Shown piece after piece: positions 39,258 through 42,384 of a stretch of 43,624 bases of DNA. Each line of letters opens with the position of its first letter. The stretch's first letter is position 1. The notes beneath the pieces are model-generated. The model was not told the origin of the DNA. It did no database searches and saw only the letters and a program-made list of their open reading frames with translations. The stretch is from a virus. The DNA is taken from the IMG/VR virus record IMGVR_UViG_3300036826_000101, positions 1-43,624 of that record. One strand, given 5' to 3'. A program made the position numbers and the translations under genes.

Positions 39258-39516
39258 GCACTACCCGGCGCCACGGGCGAAGATGCAGTTCATCACGTCC
39301 GCCGAAATGCCCTATCTGTGCTATCAGGCCCGGCTCGCCACCGGCTACGACTCCACCACCAAGTACATCCAGCATGTGCTGTGCGCGGCACTGGCCCGCG
39401 ACCTCGGGCTCGACGAGACCGCCCTCACCTCTCGGCTGCCACCGGGCCGAGGCATCGACCGGAGCCGACCTCTGCCGCTGCGCAGCGGAAGGGTCGAGGA
39501 AGAAGTCCGAGAATGA
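39238..39516 (+). CDS. conserved protein of the packaging region, 92 residues
   Basis: Overlaps the end of the previous gene by 20 bp. Core KMQFITSAEMPYLCYQARLA and YIQHVLCAALARDLGLDETA resembles a small protein found beside terminase genes in actinophages, probably helical and DNA-binding. Ends in a charged tail. Function unknown. Confidence 0.65.
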   Translation: MPFRLAEHYPAPRAKMQFITSAEMPYLCYQARLATGYDSTTKYIQHVLCAALARDLGLDETALTSRLPPGRGIDRSRPLPLRSGRVEEEVRE

Positions 39517-39532
39517 TCGGGGGTCAACTGGG

Positions 39533-39538
39533 TACACT
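39533..39538 (+). promoter_or_regulatory. candidate -10 of a leaderless gene
   Basis: TACACT ends 6 bases before the ATG at 39545, the usual spacing of an actinobacterial leaderless mRNA. No clear -35. Confidence 0.35.
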
Positions 39539-39544
39539 TGCCGC

Positions 39545-39904
39545 ATGGCGAAGGTCCGATGGACGACCCGGTGCGCTGGCGGCTGCGGCGACACGCTGCG
39601 GGTCGGCACCCACGCCACCCGGCTCCACGGAGGGTGGTTCTGCTCGTCCTGCTTCGCAGCGCACAAGCCGACCTGCCTGGTGTTCAGGGAACAGCAGAAG
39701 CGGTATGGCGGCTCGTATGTGCAAGGAGATACCGCTGAGTCGGGGCCTGGTGGCTCTGGTGGACGACGCAGACTACGAGCCGCTGACGACCGGACACAAG
39801 TGGTTCGCCAGCCCACACCGGAACACGTTCTACGCCAAACGGATGACGACCAGCCCGAGTGGGAACCGGAGTACCGAGTACCTGCACCGGCTGCTTCTCC
39901 CTGA
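39545..39904 (+). CDS. zinc-ribbon protein, C-terminus altered by endonuclease insertion
   Basis: Residues 1-50 form a zinc ribbon: TTRCAGGCGDTLRVGTHATR, then WFCSSCFAAHKPTCLV. After about residue 46, where the first 20-bp direct repeat falls, the frame runs into and overlaps the AP2-HNH gene, and the residues look out-of-frame (GSGGRRRLRAADDR). The native C-terminus has probably been replaced. Function unknown. Confidence 0.55.
   Translation: MAKVRWTTRCAGGCGDTLRVGTHATRLHGGWFCSSCFAAHKPTCLVFREQQKRYGGSYVQGDTAESGPGGSGGRRRLRAADDRTQVVRQPTPEHVLRQTDDDQPEWEPEYRVPAPAASP
39662..39681 (+). repeat. 20-bp direct repeat, left copy
   Basis: CACAAGCCGACCTGCCTGGT, identical to 40232-40251, 570 bp away (a multiple of three). 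The repeats bracket the AP2-HNH gene. Confidence 0.9.
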
Positions 39905-40226
39905 CGCACCCCGGATCGACCACTGCAACGGCAACGGCCTGGACAACCAGCGGGCCAACCTTCGTGTCGCTACCGGCAGCCAGAACCAGATCAACCGAGG
40001 ACTTGACCGCACCAACAGCACCGGTTTCAAGGGAATCTCCTTCCACCGCAAGACCGGACTCTGGCACGCCTGCCTGATCTGGCAGGGCGTCAAACGCAGC
40101 GGCCAGTACCATGCCACCCCCGAGGACGCTGCCCGCGCCTATGACGCCTTGGTCCGCCAGCACGCGGGCGAGTACGGCAGGTACAACTTTCCCCAGTCAG
40201 GCGAACGTGGTGTTCGCCATGCCTGA
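39717..40226 (+). CDS. AP2-HNH homing endonuclease
   Basis: 169 residues; the AAGGAG four bases after ATG 39717 is internal, so initiation may be coupled to the overlapped gene. HNH core: YLHRLLLPDAPRIDHCNGNG, then LDNQRANLRVATGSQNQINR (His-Asn-His-type with conserved N-N-R-x-N-L). The C-terminal AP2-like DNA-binding domain reads GFKGISFHRKTGLWHACLIW and ends with the AAR-AYD helix. Such free-standing enzymes invade genes beside conserved phage targets. It lies between 20-bp repeats just upstream of the terminase, and its stop overlaps the terminase ATG. Confidence 0.88.
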   Translation: MCKEIPLSRGLVALVDDADYEPLTTGHKWFASPHRNTFYAKRMTTSPSGNRSTEYLHRLLLPDAPRIDHCNGNGLDNQRANLRVATGSQNQINRGLDRTNSTGFKGISFHRKTGLWHACLIWQGVKRSGQYHATPEDAARAYDALVRQHAGEYGRYNFPQSGERGVRHA

Positions 40227-42384
40227 TCGTCCACAAGCCGACCTGCCTGGTCTATCGGACTACCGGAACTGGAAGCCGGAGGCACAACAACGCGCCCTCG
40301 CCCTCCTCCGCGAGCATTCTGAGTCCACCTGGCAGCCCTTCTACTGCCCCAGCCCCGGCTGTGACGGACACCCGCACGACGACTGGGGATGGGAGCATGC
40401 CCGAGCCGACCAGCACCCCCCCGCTTGGAGCGATGGCTGGCTGACCTGGTTCATGACCGGTGGCCGAGGCTCCGGGAAGACTCGTACCGGCTCCGAGGTC
40501 ACCCACCGGGTCACCAGGAAAGTCGGCTGGATCGGACTGGTCGCCGCCACCGGACCCGACCTGCGAGAGATCATGGTGGAAGGAGAATCCGGCATCCTCG
40601 CCACCGCCAGACCCGGTGAACGACCACTGTGGGAGCCGTCGAGGAAGAAACTCACCTGGCCCAACGGCGCCATCGGGCAAGGCTTCTCCGCCGAAGAACC
40701 GGACCGGCTGCGTGGTCCCCAGCACGGGTTCGTCTGGGCCGACGAGCCCGCTCACTGGCCGCTGGTGGTCGAATGCTGGGACAACATCAGTTTCGGGCTG
40801 CGCATCGGCAGCCACCCCAAGATCGTCGCCACCTCCACCCCACTGCCGACCAAATGGGTGAAGAAGACGCTGAACGAGCCCACCACCATCCGCACCCGCG
40901 TCTCCACCTATGCCAACCTCACCAACCTGGCCCCGCCGTTCGCCGAACTGATCCTGGCTCGCTACGAAGGCACCCGCACCGGCAAACAGGAGTTGCACGG
41001 CGAAGTCCTCGAAGATGTCGAAGGAGCCCTGTGGACCTGGGACATGTTCGAGTGGGTCGAGAGCCCCCCGCCACTGCAACGAATCGTGGTGGGTGTCGAC
41101 CCGGCCGGAAGCAAGAACAAGTCGTCGGACGAGACCGGCATCATCACCGTCGGCATCGGTACCGACCGATGTCTGTACGTGCTCGACGACGGCTCCGGCC
41201 GGTACACTCCGGCAGGCTGGGCCGCGAAGGCGAACAGCCTGTACGAAGACACCTCCGCCGACTGCATCGTCGCAGAGAAGAACTACGGCGGCGACATGGT
41301 GCGGCACACGCTGGAAACCTCCGGCCACACCGGGGGGAGGATCAAACTCGTCACCTCCCGGCGCGGCAAGGAGATCAGGGCCGAGCCGATCGTCGCGCTG
41401 TATGAGAAGCACCGGGTCAAGCATGTCGGCGAACGCGGTGACCTGTCGGTGCTGGAAGAGGAACTCTGTCTGGTCGCCGGAACCATGATCGAGACTCGGC
41501 GGGGGCACGTCCCGATCGAACAAGTCCGAGCCGGAGACGAGGTGTTGACCAGGACCGGGTTCGCCCCGGTCGAGTGGGCCGGGCAGACAAAACGGGAGAG
41601 CACGCTCACCCTTGTCACCCATGAGGCAGGGTGTGTACTTTCGACGGTATGGCACCGAGTGTGGACTGCGAACCGAGGGTTTGTGCCTGCCTGGAATGTG
41701 CAGCCTACGGACCGCCTCGTCGTAAGGCCCAGCCCGGCAAGTACGGCCCACCTGTTGCCTGGCGCGGTCACTGGTACTCCCGGATGGGCGAGGGCGGCTA
41801 CTTCCGGCATGCCAGAGGTGCCCTCCTCCACCGGCTCATCTGGGCAGCCCACCACGGACCCATCCCGCCGGGCATGGTCGTCCATCACCGCGACGAGAAC
41901 AAGGCCAACAATGACCCCGCCAACCTGGAACTCCTCACCGACGCCGAGCACAAGTCCCTGCACGGACCTGAGCGTGGTGGCTTCGTGGACTGGTCCACCG
42001 AGCGACGATCCGAGAACGGTCGTGCAAGTTGGGTCAGTCGAGAGCCCCGTGTATTCGTGTGTCAGCGATGCGGTGCGTCCTTTGAGTCGACGTGCACCCG
42101 CGCTCGCTGGTGTTCGCGCAAGTGTGGACGACTGGCTCGCGGCGACTGAGGTGCCGGTCTACGACATCAAGGTCGCTGACCGCTACCTCCCGGAGTTCTT
42201 CGCCAACGGGGTGCTGGTCCACAACACCACCTGGGTGCCCGGCCGGTCCGACTCCCCCAACCGACTCGACGCCCTCGTGCACGCAGCCACCGAACTGGCC
42301 CGGCATGCGATGCCAGCCGCCATCGCCGTTCCCACTCAGACCGATCGCACTGTACCGGTACCAAGACATCTACGTGCCGTCTGA
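40219..42384 (+). CDS. terminase large subunit with intein
   Basis: 721 residues before splicing, 468 after. ATG 40219 overlaps the AP2-HNH stop. Walker A GGRGSGKT at 81-88; Walker B near GFVWADEPAHW; nuclease Asp in IVVGVDPAGSKNK and Glu in CIVAEKNYGG; the last nuclease Asp in SPNRLDALVHA, after the intein. It drives DNA translocation into the prohead and cuts the concatemer. The intein (residues 417-669) interrupts EEEL/TTWVPG just ahead of the final catalytic motif, so packaging depends on splicing. The first residues (PDRPQADLPG) come from the right 20-bp repeat. Confidence 0.93.
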   Translation: MPDRPQADLPGLSDYRNWKPEAQQRALALLREHSESTWQPFYCPSPGCDGHPHDDWGWEHARADQHPPAWSDGWLTWFMTGGRGSGKTRTGSEVTHRVTRKVGWIGLVAATGPDLREIMVEGESGILATARPGERPLWEPSRKKLTWPNGAIGQGFSAEEPDRLRGPQHGFVWADEPAHWPLVVECWDNISFGLRIGSHPKIVATSTPLPTKWVKKTLNEPTTIRTRVSTYANLTNLAPPFAELILARYEGTRTGKQELHGEVLEDVEGALWTWDMFEWVESPPPLQRIVVGVDPAGSKNKSSDETGIITVGIGTDRCLYVLDDGSGRYTPAGWAAKANSLYEDTSADCIVAEKNYGGDMVRHTLETSGHTGGRIKLVTSRRGKEIRAEPIVALYEKHRVKHVGERGDLSVLEEELCLVAGTMIETRRGHVPIEQVRAGDEVLTRTGFAPVEWAGQTKRESTLTLVTHEAGCVLSTVWHRVWTANRGFVPAWNVQPTDRLVVRPSPASTAHLLPGAVTGTPGWARAATSGMPEVPSSTGSSGQPTTDPSRRAWSSITATRTRPTMTPPTWNSSPTPSTSPCTDLSVVASWTGPPSDDPRTVVQVGSVESPVYSCVSDAVRPLSRRAPALAGVRASVDDWLAATEVPVYDIKVADRYLPEFFANGVLVHNTTWVPGRSDSPNRLDALVHAATELARHAMPAAIAVPTQTDRTVPVPRHLRAV
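40232..40251 (+). repeat. 20-bp direct repeat, right copy
   Basis: Second copy of CACAAGCCGACCTGCCTGGT, inside the first codons of the terminase gene. Confidence 0.9.
41467..42225 (+). mobile_element. intein in the terminase large subunit (253 residues)
   Basis: Begins with Cys1 in CLVAGTMIETRRGHVPIEQV (block A) and RAGDEVLTRTGFAPV. Block B is TVWH within STVWHRVWTANRGFVPAWNV. The C-terminal blocks are VPVYDIKVADRYLPEF and FFANGVLVHN, with penultimate His and terminal Asn, followed by Thr as the +1 nucleophile. The central ~140 residues are Ser/Thr/Pro-rich, featureless and merely the out-of-frame reading of an HNH gene. All residues needed for class-1 splicing are present. Confidence 0.9.
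41631..42149 (+). CDS. HNH endonuclease nested out of frame inside the intein
   Basis: Encoded in a different frame from the terminase and lying wholly inside the intein. GTG 41631 has GAGG upstream; ATG 41649 is an alternative. HNH core LLHRLIWAAHHGPIPPGMVV, HHRDENKANNDPANLELLTD and EHKSLH; an N-terminal CACLEC pair and a C-terminal CQRCGASFE ... WCSRKCGRL zinc ribbon. Its own TGA (42147-42149) falls exactly where the intein's C-terminal splicing block begins, and its start overlaps block B. Presumably cuts intein-free terminase genes to spread the intein. Confidence 0.85.
   Translation: MCTFDGMAPSVDCEPRVCACLECAAYGPPRRKAQPGKYGPPVAWRGHWYSRMGEGGYFRHARGALLHRLIWAAHHGPIPPGMVVHHRDENKANNDPANLELLTDAEHKSLHGPERGGFVDWSTERRSENGRASWVSREPRVFVCQRCGASFESTCTRARWCSRKCGRLARGD

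Follow-up and report, generated by a model that had tools for sequence, protein, structure and literature searches.

A phage terminase intein that overlaps a predicted HNH endonuclease gene in another reading frame

In the usual picture, inteins gain their endonucleases as in-frame domains, a step that requires precise fusion. Dassa et al. reportedly described, in 2009, fractured genes with split inteins, in which a free-standing endonuclease lies between the two halves. Inteins of mycobacteriophage TerL proteins have been described from the ATPase domain; the five that were tested spliced, and two that were tested had endonuclease activity, and an out-of-frame endonuclease goes unmentioned in the part of that paper considered here (Kelley et al. 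2016, PMC5050341). An out-of-frame HNH gene with zinc fingers is found in the ShiLan element, an insert of disjunct distribution that keeps its host frame open and for which an internal start has been proposed (PMC11855218). The authors of that study found no intein splicing motifs, intein-like structure, or Shine-Dalgarno site and expect the insert to remain in the protein (PMC11855218). In the papers searched, we found no description of an out-of-frame endonuclease inside an intein; a preprint on actinobacteriophage inteins (10.1101/2025.01.02.630785, "Actinobacteriophage Inteins ... Non-Canonical Architecture") may overlap with the present analysis.

The window, that is, the whole stretch of DNA analyzed here, is an IMG/VR virus record of 43,624 bp, in which terL and its insert lie on the + strand. 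The terL frame runs from an ATG at 40219 (an alternative start at ATG 40111 is possible) to a stop at 42384 as a single unbroken ORF, in which Pfam recognizes Terminase_6N, Terminase_6C, and then a Hint domain from residue 417. The N-extein (40219 to 41466) takes in the ATPase domain and the greater part of the nuclease domain (Terminase_6N, E 9e-23; Terminase_6C, E 7e-9). It is followed by an intein of 253 codons in the terL frame, from Cys1 to Asn253 (41467 to 42225), and by a C-extein that begins at Thr+1 (42226 to 42384; TTWVPGRSDSPNRLDAL) and was identified by alignment to intein-free terL. The original prediction had placed all of the splicing blocks in the terminase frame, and this holds to the base: Cys1 is encoded at 41467 to 41469, the TxxH motif (TVWH) at 41644 to 41655, the His-Asn pair at 42220 to 42225, and Thr+1 at 42226 to 42228, so that the residues of a class 1 intein are all present. 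The N-terminal splicing half (41467 to 41724) matches the family profile at E 1e-30 and Pfam Hint_2 at E 2e-9, and the C-terminal half (42151 to 42225, VPVYDIKV...VLVHN) matches the family C-block profile at E 1e-10; with the TIGR01443 model of intein C termini the C-block scores 12.5 bits, under the cut-off of 15.6.

In AlphaFold models built with family alignments, the intein frame adopts a Hint fold formed by residues 1 to 89 and about 214 to 253, with pLDDT values that are mostly 81 to 97 over the N half (mostly above 85 in the N-terminal splicing half) and 71 to 93 over the C half. Residues 90 to 213 (41734 to 42105), a linker whose DNA is shared with the HNH gene and which contains no stop, are predicted to be disordered (pLDDT about 40 to 64). 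Foldseek matched the model to the DnaB, gp41-1, and NrdJ-1 inteins, and the Hint profile likewise matches the split inteins gp41-1 and NrdJ-1. Unlike a split intein or a fractured gene, the window intein is unsplit, within the one ORF from 40219 to 42384. Exact empty sites are present in the intein-free terL genes of Arthrobacter phage SilentRX (LETQM/TDWVPA) and Streptomyces phage mu1/6 (LEDEM/TSWVPG), which can be compared with the window junction, LEEEL/intein/TTWVPG. By its residues, its predicted Hint fold, and its empty allele, the insert is a class 1 intein, which would be removed from the protein by splicing.

Across the middle of the intein, a second ORF of 172 codons (41631 to 42149) is read in the -1 (+2) frame relative to terL. 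It encodes an HNH endonuclease (HNH_3, E 1.8e-19) with a predicted I-HmuI-like fold, which bears out the prediction of a complete HNH protein in a different frame, and its TGA stop (42147 to 42149), also as predicted, ends immediately 5' of the C-terminal block VPVYDIKV. The HNH_3 catalytic domain assigned by Pfam (41823 to 41951) retains the conserved HH..N..H residues, which are invariant columns in the family alignment. Two zinc motifs had been proposed. One stands as a zinc ribbon, CxxC...CxxxC (42060 to 42125), in which C144, C147, and C161 are invariant and C165 is at least 90% conserved among 55 relatives. The other, an upstream CACLEC, is not supported: its DNA encodes the intein's own block, relatives do not keep it, and the model shows it as disordered, at a pLDDT of about 48. 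The window protein is without the second zinc ribbon that most relatives have. The HNH C termini of three relatives are alike (L009, VQPDC; L032, LQPDGG; L037, VQPDG), and these ends run into C-terminal block DNA, which suggests that the overlap can reach into the splicing domain itself.

The HNH-frame model is confident from about residue 35, with pLDDT of at least 90 in 99 of the 172 residues. A phmmer search against the PDB gave matches no better than chance, but the fold search was informative, with the homing endonuclease I-HmuI as the best PDB match (E 1.4e-3). Since I-HmuI is an intron enzyme and group I introns often carry HNH homing endonucleases, the insert might be thought to leave as RNA, as a group I or group II intron in which the Hint-like frame is incidental. 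We regard this as highly improbable. No Rfam intron family was matched between 40000 and 43000 at E values up to 10, on which ground a group I or II intron core was rejected; moreover, all of the splicing residues and a confident Hint fold are present, and the Hint halves are under protein-coding constraint in the terL frame.

Directly upstream of terL, an ORF at 39318 to 40226 overlaps the terL start by 8 bases and has weak matches to HNH_3 (E 1e-4) and AP2 (E 2e-3), both under the Pfam cut-offs. This is probably a second, free-standing homing endonuclease of the HNH-AP2 type adjoining terL.

The same architecture was found in other phages. A tblastn search with the HNH led to three annotated terminases, those of Tetrasphaera phage TJE1, Rhodobacteraceae phage LS06-2018-MD07, and Acinetobacter phage Highwayman, each of which has a Hint domain in the terL frame and an HNH in the same +2 frame. 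Further cases, with the same offset throughout, came from viral contigs scanned with the Hint profile, and a Hint-profile search of genome contigs gave 14 loci, none of which had the nested HNH arrangement. In a scan of viral contigs for the HNH family only, at least 423 relatives were found, and the best 80 loci were kept. About 63 of these 80, made up of 59 distinct loci, 2 duplicates, and 2 whose Hint matches are weak, have both Hint blocks, N and C, in a single terminase ORF and, between the blocks, the HNH in the -1 frame. About 9 have a Hint N-half ORF that stops ahead of any C-half, and at the other 8, which are HNH genes, no intein was detected. None of the best 80 has the HNH in the intein frame. 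The original prediction had suggested looking for this offset in other terminase inteins, and doing so decided the matter: the family extends far beyond the one case first noticed, and the offset is -1 in all 70 distinct nested terminase copies analyzed, the window included.

Among the 67 aligned N-exteins, the Pfam families listed are those of terminases only. Most insertions split a nuclease motif (..DNH/C...HN/CIDALRY..); the window insertion lies a few residues upstream of this usual site, and that of L037 lies in the Walker B region. A mini-intein with similar splicing halves, about 70 nt between them, and no HNH was observed in L018 (3001 to 3402) and identically in L019. Terminases with an N-half only are followed by the HNH gene in L109, L110, L121, L122, L137, L140, L141, L142, and L146. 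In several of these, such as L109, L110, and L121, the C-half is readable in a separate downstream ORF; the group as a whole comprises candidate split inteins in fractured genes, akin to the nested copies. No Hint domain was detected near the HNH relatives in L087, L088, L127, L128, L129, L131, L138, and L144; in L087, L088, L129, L138, and L144 the HNH follows an intein-free terminase gene and is a free-standing form of the family. In a family A DNA polymerase gene (L071, 3001 to 3837), an intein is accompanied by an HNH_3 domain in the other alternate frame (+1), apparently an independent out-of-frame case in a nonterminase gene.

Where a lone locus has its intein in one frame and its HNH in another, the difference could originate from two compensating indels in an intein whose HNH is truly in frame. 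For the window, such an assembly or sequencing artifact is practically excluded. Over 4,994 bp, two other IMG/VR contigs align to the window without a gap, one with 0 mismatches and one with 3, and none of the 3 substitutions is inside the intein; because of these gap-free matches, indel errors are very unlikely, and the independent sequences contain no indel that would restore a single frame. The isolate genomes of TJE1, LS06-2018-MD07, and Highwayman share the offset, and at least 70 distinct copies include none in frame. The original prediction, which disfavored two compensating frameshifts from the position of the HNH stop, is therefore upheld on broader grounds, and the artifact was ruled out by the gap-free copies together with the isolate genomes.

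It had also been suggested that the linker is kept open by base composition. When the HNH codons of each of the 70 nested copies were resampled synonymously and stops in the intein-frame linker were counted, about 260 stops were expected with extein codon usage, or about 127 with each gene's own codons shuffled, against 0 observed in these copies, which had been chosen for an unbroken intein ORF. The third frame, as a control, contained 1078 stops against 1026 expected. Free of this conditioning, the share is high but not total: about 63 nested loci among roughly 72 that the HNH scan found and that have Hint evidence. For the window alone, the probability of no linker stop, given the HNH protein and codon usage, is 0.07 to 0.20, so that base composition could suffice for this copy; as the cause of open linkers family-wide it was rejected on the stop counts.

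Substitution patterns in eight close pairs, three of which share members and are thus not independent, point the same way. In the N-half, 265 of 468 substitutions fall in the third codon position of the intein frame, as do 80 of 130 in the C-half, whereas in the linker 490 of 959 fall in the third codon position of the HNH frame. Because the third-position excess changes frame there, the selected frame switches at both linker borders. Taken with the stop depletion, these sequence comparisons show both coding layers to be under selection across the family. The host frame that is used carries about four times fewer forced stops per copy than the alternative (3.7 expected versus 14.6), so that the same phase would be expected even without a single ancestry.

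How the HNH protein might be produced is indicated by the family more clearly than by the window. Of 70 copies, 61 have an ATG no more than 60 nt upstream of the HNH domain, near where the N-terminal splicing half ends. A well-placed Shine-Dalgarno match of at least 4 nt precedes the HNH start in 48 of 68 copies, compared with 40 of 191 control ATGs (21%) in the same frame of upstream terL (P = 4e-13). The HNH might instead be the product of a -1 ribosomal frameshift where the N-half ends, which would give a TerL-intein-HNH fusion; in favor of this, the HNH is in the -1 frame in every terminase copy, and in the window its frame stays open for a long way upstream and the domain has no good start close by. 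We consider this improbable. In about half of the copies a stop in the HNH frame lies 1 to 5 codons ahead of the start, so that a frameshift would have hardly any space in which to occur, and Shine-Dalgarno sites show strong enrichment. The fixed offset is accounted for by the lower density of stops in that frame, and inspection of the window junction by eye revealed no classical slippery heptamer.

For internal initiation in the window itself, the candidate starts are a GTG at 41631 (GAGG 4 nt upstream), an ATG at 41649, and a GTG at 41661. The prediction that the HNH has a start of its own thus holds insofar as the ORF offers candidates, but these are weak and none is where relatives start. 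With no ATG near the domain and a GAGG at 4 nt that is only a weak Shine-Dalgarno sequence, the window copy may be weakly expressed or decaying. Whether the family architecture is real and the window HNH a decaying remnant, so that only the intein still works here, has to be weighed at this point: the lost second zinc ribbon and the nonsignificant openness of the linker in this copy would agree with it, against which the protein keeps its HNH motif residues and its first zinc ribbon, no internal stop is present, and the predicted fold is confident. We judge such a remnant possible but unlikely.

The reading that we prefer, and hold to be very probable, is that of a mini-intein in terL that carries an overprinted HNH homing gene made by an internal translation start. 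The terL frame would be translated through the entire insert, and protein splicing would excise the intein to restore LEEEL-TTWVPG. An I-HmuI-like gene for an HNH and zinc-ribbon protein would be overprinted in the -1 frame over the loop within which ordinary inteins hold their endonuclease in frame, the same DNA when read in the intein frame giving merely a tolerated disordered loop. The HNH would be a separate protein, produced by internal initiation on the terL mRNA, and would cut intein-less terL alleles, whose repair would copy the unit in. We infer splicing, HNH synthesis, cleavage, and homing from the two coding layers and the selection on both, the empty alleles, and the start sites across the family. 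The overlapping gene-within-intein homing unit of the original prediction is in this form sustained by the stop depletion, the frame switch, and the Shine-Dalgarno starts, with its homing presumed.

Mean identity between phages is 20% for host TerL, 40% for Hint, and 39% for HNH, and this greater likeness of Hint and HNH would be as expected for horizontal movement. Mantel tests were positive but weak, with distances near saturation. In Acinetobacter phage BP10, the annotated terL is uninterrupted and a free-standing HNH that is 51% identical to the nested HNH of Highwayman lies upstream of terS.

Because it recurs in at least 70 distinct phage sequences, the double-coded design is a conserved way to build a mobile element and not a sequencing oddity. 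On balance, we lean toward a wider proposal, that of a large unrecognized class of phage inteins with a -1 overprinted homing gene expressed by internal initiation, which would link free-standing HNH genes beside intein-free TerL, mini-inteins, overprinted inteins, and fractured states in one evolutionary series. Such a series, if true, would explain how inteins gain endonucleases without an in-frame fusion. For an overprinted gene, a start codon, a ribosome-binding site, and a host frame that stays open are enough, and by this easier route a free-standing homing gene could capture a mini-intein, or a mini-intein such a gene. Since one host gene presents all four states (free-standing, mini-intein, overprinted, and split), the joining and parting of inteins and endonucleases become testable. 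The family also offers a natural collection of long genes that overlap on the same strand in one fixed phase, of a kind that annotation overlooks, as with the HNH unannotated within the terL of TJE1.

Compared with known systems, the locus resembles fractured genes in that a homing gene lies between intein halves as a gene of its own, and about 9 relatives resemble them further; unlike fractured genes, the window and most relatives are unsplit, with one ORF overlapping the HNH gene. The HNH catalytic fold is shared with I-HmuI of the phage SPO1 intron (PDB 1u3e), which is carried by an RNA intron, whereas the window HNH lies out of frame in an intein. With the mycobacteriophage inteins, as far as the part of that paper considered here describes them (PMC5050341), the family shares its location in phage terminase large subunits and differs in that most of its inteins lie in a nuclease-domain motif and have the HNH out of frame. 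The likeness to ShiLan consists of an alternate-frame HNH with zinc fingers in an insert that leaves the host frame open, of a disjunct distribution, and of a proposed internal start; unlike ShiLan, the window insert is a complete intein, with a Hint splicing domain, in a terminase, and most copies of its family have a Shine-Dalgarno site.
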